The notes beneath the pieces are model-generated. The model saw nothing but the letters and a program-made list of their open reading frames with translations, was not told the DNA's origin and did no database searches. A stretch of 64,000 nucleotides of DNA from contig JAKBAD010000007.1 of the NCBI GenBank assembly GCA_021809435.1, positions 1 to 64,000 on the forward strand, written 5' to 3'. Of the stretch, positions 43,159 through 52,925 are shown piece by piece. A program made the position numbers and the translations under genes. Source of the DNA: Pseudomonadota bacterium. Lineage in GTDB: Bacteria > Pseudomonadota > Alphaproteobacteria > Acetobacterales > Acetobacteraceae. Numbering within the stretch: position 1 is the first letter of the stretch; every line of letters begins with the position of its first letter.

Positions 43159-44037
43159 ATGCGGTTCAATGAAATCGGTCAGCAATTGCGCGCCTACCGG
43201 ATGGAGTCTGGGTTGAAGGCGGAGGAGATCTCGGCGCGGCTCGGCGTATCGCGCGCGGCCTTGTACCGCTACGAGAAAGGGGAGGTGATCAAGCTCGACA
43301 CGGTCAACCGCCTGGCCGAGCTGCTAAAGATCTCACCGCTCACGCTGCTGGGCATCGGGGTGGAATATTATGCCAAGCCGGTGGGCTATGCCGAGCGCCT
43401 GCGCCAGGTGGAAGAAGCCGCCGACCAGATTTTGCAGGTGTTCGGGCCGGTCTGCTATCTCATCACGTCGGACCAGTTCGATTCGATGCTTGGGCAGATT
43501 TTTGAAGAGACGGCAGAGGCCGCCGGGGCCGACAAGCCGCTGGCCCGCGCCGCGGCCGAGCAGTTACTCACCGTGATGCTCTCGCGCAAGCGCATGTATG
43601 CCTCGCGTAAGCCGTCGATCATTTCCATCCTCACCCTGGGCACGCTGCAAAAATTTCTGACCGACGGGGTCTGCCCCCACGCCCCGCTATCCGAGCGCAC
43701 CCGCGCCCAGGCCCGCGAGTCCGCGCTGTTCGAGGCCGAGCTGATCGCCAATCTGATGGAAAGCGAGCCGATCGGGCTGCAGCTGGGGCTCATGGCCCAG
43801 GGCGAGCCGAACGGCCCCTTCACCCTGCTGCGCTCGCGTGAGCGCGCGACGTTGGCCATAAACCCCTTCCCGGCCGATTCGCTGCCCAGCGCGCAGTCCG
43901 GGGTGGCGATGATCACCAACGCCGAGGATGCCGTGGCCGCCCATCAGCGCGTGGCCGAACAAACCTGGCGCGATGCCGTGAAAGGCGGCGCGGCGGCGGC
44001 GCGGGTGCGCGCGCTGATCAAAGCCGTGCGCGGCTGA
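43159..44037 (+). CDS. XRE-family regulator with a large C-terminal domain
   Basis: The 292-residue protein has an N-terminal Cro/CI helix-turn-helix (residues 5-60: IGQQLRAYRMESGLKAEEIS followed by LGVSRAALYRYEKGEVIKLDTVN). A mostly helical domain of about 220 residues follows, which I do not recognise and which may bind a ligand or partner. It begins with ATG 43159 behind GGAGGT. Its TGA overlaps the sseA ATG by one base, so it is co-translated with the sulfur genes and probably controls the operon. Confidence 0.85.
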   Translation: MRFNEIGQQLRAYRMESGLKAEEISARLGVSRAALYRYEKGEVIKLDTVNRLAELLKISPLTLLGIGVEYYAKPVGYAERLRQVEEAADQILQVFGPVCYLITSDQFDSMLGQIFEETAEAAGADKPLARAAAEQLLTVMLSRKRMYASRKPSIISILTLGTLQKFLTDGVCPHAPLSERTRAQARESALFEAELIANLMESEPIGLQLGLMAQGEPNGPFTLLRSRERATLAINPFPADSLPSAQSGVAMITNAEDAVAAHQRVAEQTWRDAVKGGAAAARVRALIKAVRG

Positions 44038-44870
44038 TGAGCGCGCTCATCAGCCCAGCCGCGTTGAACGCGCTGTTGGGGCCAAGCGGGCCGGTGGTGG
44101 TGGATGCCAGCTGGTACATGCCCGCCGAGGGCCAGAACGCCCGGTCCAATTTCACCATGGCACACATCCCCGGCGCCCGCTTCTTCGACCTCGACGCCAC
44201 CAGCGACCAAAGCTCGCCCTTGCCCCACATGTTGCCGCCGCCTCAGGCCTTCTCCGCCGCCATGGCGGCATTAGGCATAACCCAGGGCGCGCGGGTGGTG
44301 GTATATGACCAGCAAGGGCTGTTCTCAGCCGCCCGGCTGTGGTGGATGCTGCGCGCCTTTGGCCATGACCATGTGCAGGTCATCGATGGGGGGCTACCCG
44401 CCTGGCAGGCCGCGGGCTTTGCGCTTGAAACCGGCGCCCCCGCGCTGGCCCAAGGCAGCTTCACGGCCACCCCGCGCCCTGCGCTGGTGCGCGGACGCCA
44501 GGAGATGCTGGCCAACCTCGCCAGCCGTGCCGCCCTGGTGCTCGATGCCCGCAGCCGCCCGCGCTTCTTGGGCGAGGCCGCCGAACCTCGGCCGGGCCTG
44601 CGCGCGGGCCATATACCAGGGGCGCTCAATCTGCCCTTCACCGAGCTGGTAAAGGGCGGGCGTCTGCTGGCGCCCGAGATTTTGCGCGTCAAATTCGCGG
44701 ACTTTGGCGTCCATGCGGACACCGGCGTCATCGCCTCCTGCGGCTCTGGCGTCACGGCCTGCATCATCGCGCTGGCGATGTTTGAAGCGGGCTTGTCCGA
44801 GGCCGCCATTTATGATGGCTCTTGGGCCGAATGGGGCGCTGACCCTGAACTTCCGATCGAGACCGGGTGA
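44037..44870 (+). CDS. sseA: Sulfurtransferase, rhodanese / 3-mercaptopyruvate type
   Basis: This 277-residue tandem rhodanese has an inactive first domain and an active second one. The active-site loop CGSGVTAC begins with the catalytic Cys and resembles the CGSGVTA loop of mercaptopyruvate sulfurtransferases rather than CRKGVT of thiosulfate rhodanese. Other marks are VDASWYMP, AHIPGARFFDLD and RAGHIPGALNLPF. It takes sulfur from 3-mercaptopyruvate or thiosulfate. Stop-start overlaps link it to the regulator before it and to metC after it. Confidence 0.9.
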   Translation: MSALISPAALNALLGPSGPVVVDASWYMPAEGQNARSNFTMAHIPGARFFDLDATSDQSSPLPHMLPPPQAFSAAMAALGITQGARVVVYDQQGLFSAARLWWMLRAFGHDHVQVIDGGLPAWQAAGFALETGAPALAQGSFTATPRPALVRGRQEMLANLASRAALVLDARSRPRFLGEAAEPRPGLRAGHIPGALNLPFTELVKGGRLLAPEILRVKFADFGVHADTGVIASCGSGVTACIIALAMFEAGLSEAAIYDGSWAEWGADPELPIETG

Positions 44871-47307: not shown

Positions 47308-47491
47308 GCGGCCGTTCTGGTCTGCGCGGCCGTGCGCGCGCTTTGCGTTTTTTGCGTGGCTCAAAGCCGGCGGGCCAGCGTAGCCTGCATAAACCGGCGA
47401 CGCGAAGATTTGGCCGGATGACGCTCACACCGCGAAGCTTGGCGCGGGGCTAACATCCGCGCCGGATAAAAAAAGAACGAGGGGACAGATC

Positions 47492-48280
47492 ATGAGTGTA
47501 TCTTCGACGATCGCCGGCCATGCCGAGGGTGGACGGCCGCTTAAATTCCACCAGCTCAGCACGCAGGATCTGCGCCAAGCCTTCGCCCGCGGTGTGGATG
47601 ACTGGAAAAGCTGCCATAGCGAAACCCTGGTATTATGCGTGGTCTATCCGATCGCCGGGATTCTCGCCGGCGCCATGTGGGCGGCGCCCAATTTGCTGCC
47701 GTTCCTGTTCCCCATTCTGGCCGGTTTCGCGCTTCTTGGGCCATTGGCCACGCTTTGGTTCTCGGCGCTCTCCAAAGCCCGGGAAGAGCAGGGCGCAGCC
47801 TCGGCCGAAGCCGCGGGCAAGGTGTTCGACACCGACCGCCGCCAGACCATTCAGGGTCTCGCCATGATCGCGGTGGCCCTCTATCTCGCCTGGATTGTGG
47901 CCGCTGGGTTGATTTATGACAATTATTTCGGTGGCCAGGCGGTAAAGGGGCTGGGCTTTTTCGTCACCGTGCTGACCACGTCCCAGGGGCAGGCCATGGC
48001 GGTGGTCGGCACGCTGGTGGGCGCGTTGTTCGCGGTGGTGATGCTGGGCATCGGCGTGATCGCCTTTCCCGCCGCGCTCGACCGCGACATCGGCGTGGGC
48101 GAGGCGCTGCTCGCCGCCTTCCAGGGTATGATCCGCAATCCGCTGGTGCTGTTTGGCTGGGGTGGACTGGTCGCGGTGCTGCTGGTGCTGGGCGCGCTGC
48201 CGTTGCTGCTGGGCTTGGCCATCGTGCTGCCGGTGCTTGGCCATTCCACCTGGCACCTCTACCGCGCCATGACCGACTGA
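47492..48280 (+). CDS. DUF2189 integral membrane protein
   Basis: The 262-residue protein has a soluble N-terminus (about 45 residues) and six hydrophobic helices. Segments LSTQDLRQAFARGVDDWKS and FPILAGFALLGPLATLWFSALSKAREEQG match DUF2189 (COG5473), an uncharacterised family. AGGGGA precedes ATG 47492. It ends 90 bases before a strong terminator and is thus probably a separate unit from cyoABCD. Confidence 0.85.
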   Translation: MSVSSTIAGHAEGGRPLKFHQLSTQDLRQAFARGVDDWKSCHSETLVLCVVYPIAGILAGAMWAAPNLLPFLFPILAGFALLGPLATLWFSALSKAREEQGAASAEAAGKVFDTDRRQTIQGLAMIAVALYLAWIVAAGLIYDNYFGGQAVKGLGFFVTVLTTSQGQAMAVVGTLVGALFAVVMLGIGVIAFPAALDRDIGVGEALLAAFQGMIRNPLVLFGWGGLVAVLLVLGALPLLLGLAIVLPVLGHSTWHLYRAMTD

Positions 48281-48369
48281 GCGGGCGAAATGGTTTATCC
48301 AAACCAGGCTCACGCGGCACGGCCATCCTGATGGCGTAACGGGCGAGCGTTTTCATAACCCCGAATCGA

Positions 48370-48400
48370 CCGGGCGGCAGGGAGGGCCGCCCGGTTTTTT
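48370..48400 (+). terminator. Rho-independent terminator after the DUF2189 gene
   Basis: CCGGGCGGC at 48370-48378 pairs with GCCGCCCGG at 48386-48394 (7-base loop) and is followed by six T. It separates the DUF2189 gene from the palindrome cluster and cyoABCD. Confidence 0.92.
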
Positions 48401-48454
48401 GTGCGCGGGGTACCATGTGGGATGGTTTCCCTGATCGAGAGAATTGGCCCGGAC

Positions 48455-48514
48455 CATGCACAATTGTGCATGTCATTGATTTAAATCAATGAACAGGAAC
48501 GCCCCGTTCCTGTT
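48455..48514. promoter_or_regulatory. Three adjacent perfect palindromes with an FNR/FixK box
   Basis: First, CATGCACAATTGTGCATG at 48455-48472 is a perfect 18-base palindrome. Second, CATTGATTTAAATCAATG at 48474-48491 is another perfect one, with core TTGAT-N4-ATCAA (48476-48489), the exact FNR/FixK/Anr consensus. Third, AACAGGAACG and CGTTCCTGTT (48492-48501 and 48505-48514) make a perfect hairpin. Only one base separates the first two and none the last two. The cluster starts 462 bases before cyoA. The FNR match implies oxygen-dependent control; what is controlled is inferred. Confidence 0.72.
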
Positions 48515-48916
48515 TGGTCTGGCTGTGGCGGTTGCCCCTGTCACGGCCGCTTTAGTTGCGATCCCGATCCGTAACCGTTACCTTGAGTGGCGGGCAAGCG
48601 GGTGGCGTTGGCGGTTTTTGGCCGGGGGGCTGTGCGCGCATTCAAGGCAATATCAGGCCTTGGTCATGCTTGGCCGGGACGGGGGAAGAAACTCATGCGA
48701 TTTGGGCGAAAACCGGGGCGGGTGGCCCCAGCGGCGCTGTGCCGCCCTGACACAACTCCCCATGCCTTGTTGCAATGCATCGTGGAATCAGTTTAATCGA
48801 GGCAGCCTGACCGCCGGATGACGGGGCGTTAACGCGCCCGCGTTATGGGCTGGCGGAGTTATGCGGCTGATGTGAAGTGACTCAGAGGGCAGAAACTCTG
48901 AGCGGAGGGTGTTGAA
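48515..48916. other. Long leader region before cyoA, no convincing gene
   Basis: Within this 402-base stretch a short ORF (48489-48821) is open on the plus strand, but its composition is irregular and it lacks a ribosome site, so I do not call it. GGAGGG at 48904-48909 is the ribosome site of cyoA. The region may be an untranslated leader or hold a small RNA. Confidence 0.4.
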
Positions 48917-49852
48917 TTGCGAGTTTTGGGACTTGTGGCGCTCTTGGCGCCGCTGATGCTGGCGGGCTGTTCGGTGCACGACATGGTGCTGTTCTTCCCT
49001 GCCGGGCCGATGGCGGCGTCAGAGCTGCATTACACATATCTGATCACCGGCATCATGATGGTGATCATTGTGCCGACTTTGCTGATGAGCATATGGTTCC
49101 CGATCAAATACCATATCAGCCGGCAGCATAAGGAAAAATATACGCCGGATTGGACCTTCTCCTACGCCATCGAGGTGCTGGCCTGGGGCATTCCGCTCGG
49201 CATCGTGGCCGTGCTGGCCTGGCTCTCGGTGCATGGCATTCGGGGCATCGACCCCTGGAACCCGCCGCTGCTGGCCAAGATCGCGCCCAACGCTCCGGTC
49301 GAGGAGGTGGATGTCATCGCCACTGACTGGCAATGGGTGTTCATCTACCCGGCCGAGAAGCTCGTCACCATCGATGAGCTGACCATCCCAGCCGGCGCGC
49401 GCATCGATCTCAAGCTCACCGCGACCCAGAACATGGATGGGTTCTACATTCCCCAGGTCGCCCCCATGGTCGATGCCATGCCCGCCATGCAGACCAAGGA
49501 TACGTTCCTGGTCAGCCAGCCCGGCGATTTCACCGGCTTCTCGACCGATTTCTCGGGCGCGGGTTTCTCCTGGATGCGCTTTGCCGTGCATGCCGTGAGC
49601 ACCGCCGATTTCGCCGCCTGGGTGCAAAGCCATCAGGGTGCAGCGCCGCTTGATTACGCCGCGTTCGACGCCCATATCGCCCAGCCGCAGGTGAATTACG
49701 GCGCCACGCCGTCTTACTTCACCCTGACCGATCCCAAGCTCTTTGGTGAGGTCATTTCGGCCGCCCAGATGGGCAAGACCTATCCAGTCTCGCAAGCCCT
49801 TAACAAGGCTGTTGCCGACGACGATGCCGCCCCCGTGGCCGGCGCCCAATAA
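48917..49852 (+). CDS. cyoA: Ubiquinol oxidase bo3 subunit II, CyoA
   Basis: CyoA is subunit II of the proton-pumping quinol oxidase. The 311-residue lipoprotein starts MRVLGLVALLAPLMLAGCSVH, with lipobox LAGC (mature N-terminus Cys18). Two membrane helices follow, then a cupredoxin-like domain without the copper ligands of cytochrome oxidases, as expected for a quinol enzyme. Segments TDWQWVFIYP and MQTKDTFLV... fit the family. The start is TTG 48917 with GGAGGG nine bases upstream. E. coli CyoA is 315 residues. First gene of cyoABCD. Confidence 0.94.
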   Translation: MRVLGLVALLAPLMLAGCSVHDMVLFFPAGPMAASELHYTYLITGIMMVIIVPTLLMSIWFPIKYHISRQHKEKYTPDWTFSYAIEVLAWGIPLGIVAVLAWLSVHGIRGIDPWNPPLLAKIAPNAPVEEVDVIATDWQWVFIYPAEKLVTIDELTIPAGARIDLKLTATQNMDGFYIPQVAPMVDAMPAMQTKDTFLVSQPGDFTGFSTDFSGAGFSWMRFAVHAVSTADFAAWVQSHQGAAPLDYAAFDAHIAQPQVNYGATPSYFTLTDPKLFGEVISAAQMGKTYPVSQALNKAVADDDAAPVAGAQ

Positions 49853-49867
49853 GGAAGGATTGCAACC

Positions 49868-51928
49868 GTGCAAGTTGCCATTGAAGGACCCTGGTCGCCG
49901 CTGTTCGGCCGCCTGACGTTAGATGCCATTCCCTATAACAACCCAATCATCGTGCCGACCTTCATCGTCGCCGCGCTGGCCGGGCTGGTCGCCGTAGGCG
50001 CCGTGCTTTACTACAAAAAGCTGGGCTATATCTGGCGCGAGTGGCTGTGCTCGGTCGATCACAAGAAGATCGGCGTGATGTACATCATCCTTGGCCTGGT
50101 CATGCTGTTCCGCGGCTATGCCGACGGGCTGATGATCCGCACCCAGCAAGCCATCGCCATCGGCCCCAACAGCCCCGGCTTCCTGGGCGCCAAGCATGGC
50201 TATCTGCCGCCCTTCCATTTCGACCAGATCTACTCGGCCCACGGCACGATCATGCTGATCTTCGCCGCCACGCCGCTGCTCACCGGTCTGGGCAATGTCA
50301 TCGTGCCGCTGCAAATCGGCGCGCGCGACATGGCGTTCCCCTACCTCAACGCCACCTCGCTGTGGCTCACCTTCGCGGGCGCCGCGCTGGTCATGATCTC
50401 ACTGTTCGTGGGTGAGTTCTCCAGCGCCACCTGGGTAGGCCTGATGCCCTACTCCGAAATGGCCTCGAACCCGGGCGTCGGCGTGGATTACTGGATGTGG
50501 GCCATTCAGATCTCCTCGATCGGCACCACCTTCAACTCCATCAACATCATCGCCACCATCGTCAAGATGCGCGCGCCCGGCATGACCTGGTTCAAGCTGC
50601 CGGTGTTCTCGTGGGTGCAGCTCACCACGGCCATCATCGGCCTCACGGCGTTCCCCATCCTCACCGTGGCGCTGACCATGCTGGGCATCGACCGCTATCT
50701 CGGCACGCATTTCTTCACCGCCGGGATGGGGGGCAATTTCATGCTCTACATCAACCTGTTCTGGATCTGGGGCCACCCCGAGGTGTACTTCCTGGTGCTG
50801 CCCGCCTTTGGCGTGCTGTCCGAGGTCGTGCCCGCCTTCTCGCGCAAGGCGCTGTTTGGCTACCCCACCATGGTGGCGGCGTCCTTCTCCATCGCCGGCA
50901 TCGGCTGGATGGTCTGGGCGCACCATTTCTTCACCATGGGCATGGGCCCGAACCAGATCGGCTTCTTCTCCGCCGCCACCATGATCGTGGGCATCCCCAC
51001 GGGCGTGAAGGCGTTCAACTGGCTGTTTACCATGTATCGCGGCCGCATCTCCTACGAGACCCCGATGCTGTGGGCGATGATCTCCATCGTGCTGCTGCTC
51101 ATTGGCGGCCTCACGGGCATGATGCTCTCGGCCTCCGTCATCGATTACTCGGTGCATGACAGCGTGTTCGTGGTGGCGCATTTCCACTGCATGGTGCTGG
51201 TCATCGGTGCCTCGGCGTTCGCGGCCGTCATCTTCTGGTGGCCCAAGGTGTTTGGCTTCAAGCTGAACGAGACGCTGGGCAAATGGTTCTTCTGGACCTT
51301 CATCGCCGGCTCGCTGCTGGTGTTCGTGCCAATGTTCATGGCCGGTCTGGCCGGCGAAACCCGCCGTCTTGACTACGTGTTCAACACCGCCCTGGCGCCT
51401 TACATGCTGTGGGAAGAGGTGGGTGTGCTGGTTTACCTCGCTTCCATCTTCTTCTTCGTGGCCATGCTTGTCGTCTCGCTCTGGCAGCGCGTGCCGGCGG
51501 GTGAGAGCCCGTGGGGCACCGAGCGCGGTTTGGAATGGCTGACCCGCACGCCGGTGCCGTTCTATAACTTCGCGGTCACCCCGCATGTGAACGCGCTGGA
51601 CGAAACCTCCTGGCGGCGTGAGGTCGGCGCCGCGCTGCGCCCCACGCGCTACGTGCCCATCCATCTGCCGCACGGCTCGGGTCTGCCCTTCATCCTGGGC
51701 ATGGATGTGTTCGCTTGGGGCTTCGCGCTCACCTGGCGCATCGACTGGCTGATCGTGCTGACCACCATCGCCATGATCGCCATCGTGTTCATCCGCTCGT
51801 TCGACCGTAACGAAGGCTTCATCATCCCCGCCGAAGAGGTGGAAGCCTATGAAGCCAATATCAGCACCGCCAGCATTTTCGCCGAGCAGCCCAAGCGCGG
51901 CCACGGCCTGGTGGGGGAGGCGCACTGA
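49868..51928 (+). CDS. cyoB: Ubiquinol oxidase bo3 subunit I, CyoB
   Basis: This catalytic subunit has two haems and CuB and pumps protons. The 686-residue protein keeps the ligands and channel residues. They are the haem b His in IYSAHGTIM, proton-channel Asp in GARDMAFPYLN, Glu and His-Tyr of the CuB site in WGHPEVY, His-His in WAHHFFTMG, Lys in IPTGVKAFNW, and the haem His pair in VAHFHCMVL. It has about 15 helices. The start is GTG 49868 behind GGAAGG. Its TGA overlaps the cyoC ATG by one base. Confidence 0.97.
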   Translation: MQVAIEGPWSPLFGRLTLDAIPYNNPIIVPTFIVAALAGLVAVGAVLYYKKLGYIWREWLCSVDHKKIGVMYIILGLVMLFRGYADGLMIRTQQAIAIGPNSPGFLGAKHGYLPPFHFDQIYSAHGTIMLIFAATPLLTGLGNVIVPLQIGARDMAFPYLNATSLWLTFAGAALVMISLFVGEFSSATWVGLMPYSEMASNPGVGVDYWMWAIQISSIGTTFNSINIIATIVKMRAPGMTWFKLPVFSWVQLTTAIIGLTAFPILTVALTMLGIDRYLGTHFFTAGMGGNFMLYINLFWIWGHPEVYFLVLPAFGVLSEVVPAFSRKALFGYPTMVAASFSIAGIGWMVWAHHFFTMGMGPNQIGFFSAATMIVGIPTGVKAFNWLFTMYRGRISYETPMLWAMISIVLLLIGGLTGMMLSASVIDYSVHDSVFVVAHFHCMVLVIGASAFAAVIFWWPKVFGFKLNETLGKWFFWTFIAGSLLVFVPMFMAGLAGETRRLDYVFNTALAPYMLWEEVGVLVYLASIFFFVAMLVVSLWQRVPAGESPWGTERGLEWLTRTPVPFYNFAVTPHVNALDETSWRREVGAALRPTRYVPIHLPHGSGLPFILGMDVFAWGFALTWRIDWLIVLTTIAMIAIVFIRSFDRNEGFIIPAEEVEAYEANISTASIFAEQPKRGHGLVGEAH

Positions 51929-52560
51929 TGCATTCCGAAAAACCCATTCTCACCGCCAAAACCGCCCTGTGGGCGTATGAGGGTGAGGAGCATGATTTCA
52001 TCTCCACCCGCACGTTCGGCTTCTGGCTGTACCTGCTCTCCGACGCGCTGATCTTCGCCGGCCTGTTCGCCTCCTACGCGGTCATGGATAATCCGATGTC
52101 CGCGTTCGGCCACCCGCTGGCCGATGGGCTGCTCTCCGCCTCGCGCGGGCTGGAGCAGACCTTCATCGTGCTAGGCTCGGTGTTTGCCGTCTCCATCGGC
52201 TCGCTCGGGCTCAAATCGGGCAATAAGGGCCTGGTTCTGGGCGGTCTGGCGGTTGGCGGGCTGCTGGGCGCGCTGTTCATCTGGTTCGGCGTCTCCGATA
52301 TGCTGGCCATGGCCGCCGCCGGCAATGGCCCGCTCGAGAGCGGCTATCTCTCCTGCCTCTACACGCTGCTCATCACCCATGCGCTGCATATGGGCTTCGG
52401 GCTGCTGTGGATTTTGGCCATGTTCATCCATATCGCCCGCTGGGGGCTGGATGCCATGAACACCGCCCGCCTCCTGTGCCTGCGCATGTTCTGGCAGTTC
52501 CAGGCCAGCGTGTGGGTGATCGTTTACGTTTATGTCTATCTGTTTGGAGGAGCGCACTGA
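51928..52560 (+). CDS. cyoC: Ubiquinol oxidase bo3 subunit III, CyoC
   Basis: This 210-residue five-helix subunit stabilises the enzyme core. It begins MHSEKPILTAKTALW, with FGFWLYLLSDALIFAGLFASYAV as its first membrane helix and family segments RGLEQTFIVLGS and LLITHALHMGFGLLWIL. Its TGA overlaps the start of cyoD by one base (TGATG), like the other junctions in this operon. Confidence 0.95.
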   Translation: MHSEKPILTAKTALWAYEGEEHDFISTRTFGFWLYLLSDALIFAGLFASYAVMDNPMSAFGHPLADGLLSASRGLEQTFIVLGSVFAVSIGSLGLKSGNKGLVLGGLAVGGLLGALFIWFGVSDMLAMAAAGNGPLESGYLSCLYTLLITHALHMGFGLLWILAMFIHIARWGLDAMNTARLLCLRMFWQFQASVWVIVYVYVYLFGGAH

Positions 52561-52925
52561 TGGGTACGCATCATTACGACCCCACCCAGCACCCCGAGGT
52601 GCGCCAGGGCACGGCTCTGCGCTATGTGCTGGCTACCGTGATCTCAGCCGGGGCCATGGTGGCGGCTTATTATGTCGCCATGAGCAAGCCGCCACTGGTC
52701 ACCCTGCTCGAGGAACTGGCGGGCACGCTGCTCGTCGCCCTGCTGGCCCAGGCCGCGCTTTATTTCGGGCTCGATATTTCGCGCGCCCAGATCTGGAAGT
52801 CGGTCAGCCTGGTGCTCACCTTGCCGCTGTTCATCATCTCCATCGGCATCACGGTATGGGCGTTCTCTTCGCTCTATGGCCGCACCATGCCCGATCCCGC
52901 GATCATGAGCTCAATGGCGATGTAA
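52560..52925 (+). CDS. cyoD: Ubiquinol oxidase bo3 subunit IV, CyoD
   Basis: The 121-residue subunit IV starts MGTHHYDPTQHPEVRQGTAL, with three hydrophobic helices (for example LVTLLEELAGTLLVALLAQAALYFG and LVLTLPLFIISIGITVWAF). It helps assemble the oxidase. The ATG at 52560 is inside the cyoC stop overlap. After it come two tandem hairpins that close the operon. No cyoE (haem O synthase) follows, so that gene must be elsewhere. Confidence 0.93.
   Translation: MGTHHYDPTQHPEVRQGTALRYVLATVISAGAMVAAYYVAMSKPPLVTLLEELAGTLLVALLAQAALYFGLDISRAQIWKSVSLVLTLPLFIISIGITVWAFSSLYGRTMPDPAIMSSMAM

Follow-up and report, generated by a model that had tools for sequence, protein, structure and literature searches.

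A likely FNR-type operator far upstream of cyoABCD, probably stranded by loss of the first of two tandem cyo operons

Why does an exact FNR box stand within a cluster of perfect palindromes some 430 bases upstream of a bo3 oxidase operon? The locus lies in a 64,000-nucleotide stretch of contig JAKBAD010000007.1 (the window), from a source genome (G000) of 2.65 Mb in 12 contigs, which we compared with the nearest relative found, G020. A first-pass annotation of the window had described three perfect palindromes at 48455..48514, one of them an FNR/FixK box. All three are present, as 18 + 18 (really 20) bases and a hairpin with 10-base arms, and the features of the cluster are as follows.

48455..48472, no strand: perfect 18-base palindrome CATGCACAATTGTGCATG, partly kept in G020
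48473..48492, no strand: 20-base perfect palindrome containing the exact FNR box TTGATTTAAATCAA (48476-48489)
48492..48514, + strand: hairpin with 10-bp arms and a 3-base loop, CCC; not formed in G020
48520..48549, + strand: imperfect inverted repeat, absent from the earlier list; its RNA hairpin forms also in G020

Both CATGCACAATTGTGCATG (48455-48472) and CATTGATTTAAATCAATG (48474-48491) are perfect palindromes. The T at 48473, which had been taken for a spacer base, pairs with the A at 48492, giving a middle palindrome of 20 bases; the first two palindromes therefore touch directly, and of the earlier description it is the adjoining palindromes that survive and the spacer that does not. Base 48492 is common to the middle palindrome and the third hairpin. 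Even perfect palindromes of at least 18 bases number three in the window, where 60 first-order Markov simulations give 0.77 on average, and two palindromes of at least 16 bases within at most 5 bases of each other occurred in one case among the 60 simulated windows. The cluster is thus more than chance would give, as had been supposed of the two adjoining 18-base palindromes. Elsewhere in the window, a 24-base perfect palindrome, GGCTGATGAGCGCGCTCATCAGCC, occupies 44032-44055, and two reading frames meet at 44037.

The core of the middle palindrome matches TTGAT-N4-ATCAA exactly at 48476-48489, as annotated. Exact sites of this form number 13 in the source genome and 12 in G020. Ten of the 13 are matched by an exact box in orthologous G020 DNA, and the ten core bases are identical in all 10 shared boxes. 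With up to one mismatch allowed, boxes occur at 70 places against 1 for a reversed-pattern control, a control with CTAG-like words that are perhaps rare for other reasons. The genes that read away from shared boxes include those for an Fnr-type regulator (27 bases from its box), cydA, hemB, hcp, and a hydrogenase small subunit; cydA lies several hundred bases from its box, and its frame extends past the fetched stretch. Other boxes adjoin genes without a known oxygen link, for example, bioB, a 2OG-Fe(II) oxygenase gene, and CBS-domain genes. Two candidate targets were set aside: hemN (L046), whose frame points toward the box and starts outside the fetched stretch, and a reductase gene (L037), whose end lies at its box. 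Beyond the L037 box, at a distance of 84 bases, a similar frame begins; no Pfam match was found for it. Eight bases after the cydA box (L036, G000 C3:60195), a second dyad is seen, CCTTACAATATGGTAAGG, whose G020 counterpart (L088) is TCTTACAATGTGGTAAGA, with the outer pair altered on both sides. This dyad is perhaps a second operator or promoter element.

An FNR/FixK homologue, which the first-pass annotation had presumed, is indeed encoded. The Fnr-type gene (L040/L050) contains HTH_Crp_2 above the cut-off, and the best NCBIfam models for its product are FnrL (153 bits) and FixK (147 bits), both below their cut-offs of 300. The protein has cysteines at positions 27, 30, 38, 126, and 188; the spacing of the first four (27, 30, 38, and 126) is what we take to be that of oxygen-sensing FnrL proteins. 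Compared with G020, the arms of the FNR palindrome are identical at 16 of 16 bases and its central four at 2 of 4, against 56 to 86% identity in the flanking blocks. Because orthologous boxes are conserved and the genome has an Fnr-type regulator with FnrL-like cysteines, the box at 48476 is very probably an FnrL-type site. Conservation of the palindromes in close relatives, to which the first-pass annotation had looked, extends to the FNR box in one relative, G020; there the first palindrome is partial and the third hairpin is not formed.

The cluster lies between a DUF2189 gene and the cyo operon, and a terminator-like hairpin is found upstream of it, where a terminator had been proposed.

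47492..48280, + strand: gene for a DUF2189 membrane protein, next to cyo on its upstream side (Pfam PF09955, E 4.6e-22)
48368..48396, + strand: terminator-like hairpin after the DUF2189 gene (arms 48369-48378 and 48386-48395)
48917..49852, + strand: cyoA, second-operon type, TTG start (COX2 domain)
49868..51928, + strand: cyoB (COX1, E 3.7e-126)
51928..52560, + strand: cyoC (assigned from its position and its resemblance to the G020 operons)
52560..52925, + strand: cyoD (assigned from its position and its resemblance to the G020 operons)

G020 shows a different arrangement at this locus. On one 84-kb contig, it carries a DUF2189-like gene, the box, cyoABCD-1, a terminator-like hairpin (L006 8998-9025), cyoABCD-2, and then the same next two genes as in the window. 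The source genome has one cyoA only (E<=1e-40), and that gene is 92% identical to G020 cyoA-2 and 64% identical to G020 cyoA-1. Alignment of the two loci places the following features between the box and the surviving cyoA.

48688..48739, + strand: remnant of cyoA-1: 16 initial codons with the preceding ribosome-binding region; the ATG is at 48695 (local alignment)
48737..48739, no strand: probable deletion junction CTG, with CTG at both G020 break points (L006 4918-4920 and 9052-9054)
48740..48916, + strand: cyo leader belonging to the second, surviving operon; homologue of L006 9055-9222

The remnant reads MRFGRKPGRVAPAALC in the window and VRIWRNLGLLAPLALAGC in G020. Its alignment (48688-48739) reaches a score of 52, whereas the highest of 1000 shuffles is 30; with a second scoring scheme, the corresponding values are 42 and 34. 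The box centre lies 212 bases from the remnant's start codon at 48695, and in G020 it lies 205 bases before the cyoA-1 start. At 48737-48739, homology shifts from codon 16 of cyoA-1 to the cyo-2 leader, of which the window has 177 bases, with several 20-base blocks 75 to 90% identical to G020 and others 45 to 65%. L006 4921-9054, about 4.1 kb that hold cyoABCD-1 and the terminator-like hairpin, is without counterpart in the window. Examined as the scar of a deletion between tandem operons, the locus thus has both break points visible in G020 and a remnant of the lost gene in the window. A deletion scar, and not original design, is the best account of the long distance from box to cyoA: the box is far from the surviving cyoA probably because the first of two tandem cyo operons was lost and its switch was left behind. 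What the first-pass annotation called a site far upstream of cyoABCD is therefore linked to a cyo operon, as it proposed, at a distance that probably reflects the scar, and its approximately 400 bases without a convincing gene include the decayed start of a lost one (48688-48739). By eye, a short hairpin, CTCAGA...TCTGAG, immediately precedes the ribosome-binding region of cyoA in the window (48881-48902) and in G020 cyo-2 (L006 9188-9208), and one is also seen near the cyoA start in G051 (L016).

Among the matches listed in the 38 genus genomes (the source genome included), the next best for this region beyond G020 has an E value of 0.001. A 306-base query run at E up to 1 matched all 38 genomes; outside the source genome and G020, these matches were short and scattered and were treated as chance. 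When 48281-48916 was compared with the stretches upstream of seven other genus cyoA loci, none scored above the best of 200 shuffles, although L010 nearly did (29 against a shuffle best of 30).

At E<=1e-40, cyoA is found in 25 of the 38 genus genomes, with two copies in G020, G042, and G013; both are on one contig in G020 only. We built a tree of 27 rows, 25 of them different (L058 and L059 are identical to L011 and L012), leaving out L016, which was not recognised as CyoA, and L025 and L028, which lack CyoB. The window Cyo and G020 cyo-2 form a pair (100/100), which groups only weakly with G011, G041, and G016 (84/86); G020 cyo-1 groups with G045, G008, and G015 (97/98). From these positions, the two cyo operons are distinct and not recent copies of each other. 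The G016 Cyo rows are identical to those of Acidocella sp. KAb 2-4, and we therefore take the genus to be Acidocella or a near neighbour.

Upstream of cyoA, a similar DUF2189 protein is seen by eye in L010, L011, L016, L022, and L023, and also before G020 cyo-1. In the 500 bases upstream of the cyoA frame, an exact box is present at 3 of the 27 readable genus loci (of 28; distances are to the open frame and not to an established start), namely, the window, G020 cyo-1, and G045, and at the other 24 it was not found with up to one mismatch. The G045 box (L014, reverse strand, position 922) is likewise embedded in a perfect palindrome of 20 bases, GAATTGATCTAGATCAATTC; a cyo-1-type cyoA has its open frame about 400 bases further on. 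A family sample gave cyoA matches at E<=1e-30 in 59 of 120 genomes; more matches existed than were fetched, and 23 of the 28 fetched loci were readable. One exact and four one-mismatch boxes are present upstream of cyoA at these 23 loci. For 51 stretches of 560 bases, plain arithmetic gives an expected 0.03 exact boxes and 0.84 with up to one mismatch. In four of the five family cases the open frame begins 148 to 209 bases after the box, in the fifth 469 bases after it, and all five boxes follow a similar membrane protein gene (by eye). They come from 4 genera (L130 and L134 are from one), suggesting that such control is wider in the family.

Taken together, we consider it likely that the cluster is the operator and promoter region of the lost cyoABCD-1, that it holds an FnrL site, and that a deletion of about 4.1 kb fused the cyoA-1 remnant to the leader of the second operon. 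The DNA itself shows the box and its conservation in one relative, together with the other boxes, the remnant, the junction, and the missing terminator-like hairpin; the steps that connect them are our reconstruction. The ancestor would have had cyoABCD-1 and cyoABCD-2 in tandem, with the FNR box controlling the first. The deletion would have removed cyoA-1 from codon 17 through the terminator-like hairpin of cyoABCD-1, joining the box, leader, ribosome-binding site, and 16 codons to the second-operon leader. FnrL would still bind the box under low oxygen, and an FnrL-controlled promoter that formerly served cyoABCD-1 would lie in about 48470-48690. FNR sites usually lie at about -41.5 from the promoter or further upstream; no sigma-70-like promoter was found in 48250-49000 or in the two G020 stretches scanned. 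Transcription from the box region may enter the surviving cyoABCD about 430 bases downstream and add to the operon's own promoter. Our guess is that FnrL would repress cyo, by analogy with its action at cytochrome oxidase genes of Rhodobacter sphaeroides, although in Sphingopyxis granuli anaerobic induction covers most of a cyo operon. Less favourable to the reading as a whole are the presence of the region in a single relative among the matches listed for the 38 genus genomes, the lack of a box at 24 of the 27 genus loci, the empty promoter scans, the FnrL score below its cut-off, and the mere 56% identity of 48578-48687 to G020. It is also plausible, and we propose it tentatively, that the event was a promoter swap. 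Losing cyoABCD-1 and its terminator may have put the remaining bo3 oxidase under the FnrL region of the lost copy, with two stacked promoters, a conserved leader hairpin (48520-48549), and possibly a young second operator (48455-48472).

The box might instead be a relic that FnrL can bind with no effect on any gene, with the surviving cyo operon transcribed solely from the promoter that it has between junction and cyoA. We regard this as possible but rather doubtful. The retained 177-base leader, with its blocks of 75 to 90% identity, and the failure to find a promoter-like match near the box are what such a relic would look like. However, all 16 arm bases are unchanged amid blocks of 56 to 86% identity, the terminator-like hairpin that separates the G020 operons is missing in the window, and some other family members have an FNR-like box ahead of cyoA.

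The first-pass annotation inferred a composite site with two different dimeric regulators, the second of which would act on the first palindrome. This we judge unlikely, despite the low chance (1 in 60 simulated windows for pairs of at least 16 bases) of a perfect 18-base palindrome touching the FNR palindrome. In G020, the first palindrome retains 14 of 18 bases and 6 of 9 pairs, which is no better than the adjoining blocks, although a residual 6-bp RNA stem including one G-U pair is left. A second copy was not found in the source genome at up to 3 mismatches. The pattern CATGCAC-N4-GTGCATG with up to one mismatch occurs once each in 9 of the 38 genus genomes (the reversed pattern, in 2 of 38), and is mismatch-free only in the source genome. 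At the remaining 12 exact FNR boxes, searched to a distance of 60 bases, the closest likeness is GCTTTGCACAAAGC before the cydA box, which has TGCACAA in common with the first palindrome and is absent in G020. Pattern searches for its regulator in the source genome and the 38 genus genomes gave nothing convincing, and the dyads before two other Crp-type genes (L051 and L052) are, by eye, unlike it. With a dyad neither kept in G020 nor repeated in the source genome, and a third hairpin that is not formed in G020, neither a second dimeric operator nor the claim of two regulators is borne out.

That a small RNA or structured leader starts at the cluster is quite improbable. The 106 bases from 48455 do fold well (z -5.99, and -2.14 in G020), but this score is largely a consequence of the DNA palindromes. 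The third hairpin is identical to G020 at 14 of 22 bases, and its fold is not formed there. The 63 bases after it are better kept (54 of 63 identical) and include the 48520-48549 hairpin, which forms in G020 as well (L006 4710-4734), in favour of a structured RNA. A scan of 47400-49000 against Rfam (E<=1) gave no match, the matches listed for the 38 genus genomes held no convincing relative other than G020, and the homologous G020 stretch is the cyo-1 leader, all of which speaks against the unannotated small RNA that had been suggested. A protein-coding frame at 48489-48821 (110 amino acids) was rejected: it has no Pfam match, and a one-base gap relative to G020 near 48535 breaks it.

A gain of cyo-1 in G020 by insertion after the species split, with the window as the original state, would fit five other genus members in which, by eye, a lone cyoA locus is preceded by a DUF2189-like gene, but it is highly improbable, since an uninserted ancestor would lack the cyoA-1 start, ribosome-binding region, and 16 codons that the window has. 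A gain of cyo-1 before the split, followed by its loss in the window lineage, is possible and agrees with the tree.

The FNR reading of the cluster is thus good, and the composite-site and small-RNA readings are not supported. With loss of cyoABCD-1 as the preferred explanation, a puzzle of palindromes becomes an event, in which a regulator site was stranded when its own operon was lost. The scar of a lost tandem operon is an ordinary but neat event, and G020, with the intact tandem, and the source species, with the fused remnant, would form a natural test of whether loss of a duplicate rewires oxygen control of the remaining copy.

Second bo3 (cyo) operons are already known in some Acidocella (PMC10715153), and Asaia has two cyo operons with opposite expression (PMC4596401). 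The duplicates resemble the G020 arrangement in having a second cyo operon; they differ in that the available parts of these two papers describe neither a tandem pair beside a DUF2189 gene nor a deletion scar. In the portion of the literature on Acidocella with FNR or ubiquinol oxidase that was available, no report of a box-plus-deletion-scar arrangement was found, which is not proof of absence. The closest regulatory parallel is the FnrL regulon of R. sphaeroides, which has the same box, TTGAT-N4-ATCAA, and overlapping kinds of targets, namely, genes of haem synthesis and the gene of the regulator itself; in that work (PMC2908626, in part), a '-' is given for the exact boxes at coxI and coxII-X-XI-III. 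Unlike that regulon, the target here would be a bo3 quinol oxidase operon ("cyo" is absent from the main text of PMC2908626), and the box is far from the gene, probably through a deletion. In Sphingopyxis granuli TFA, going by part of PMC7713065, an alphaproteobacterial cyo operon is likewise tied to Fnr sites; it differs in that most of the operon belongs to the anaerobically induced genes and that the Fnr sites were found inside it. Finally, GoxR of Gluconobacter oxydans, as described in part of PMC9429829, offers a likeness in an acetic acid bacterium, being an FNR-type iron-sulphur regulator of respiration genes.
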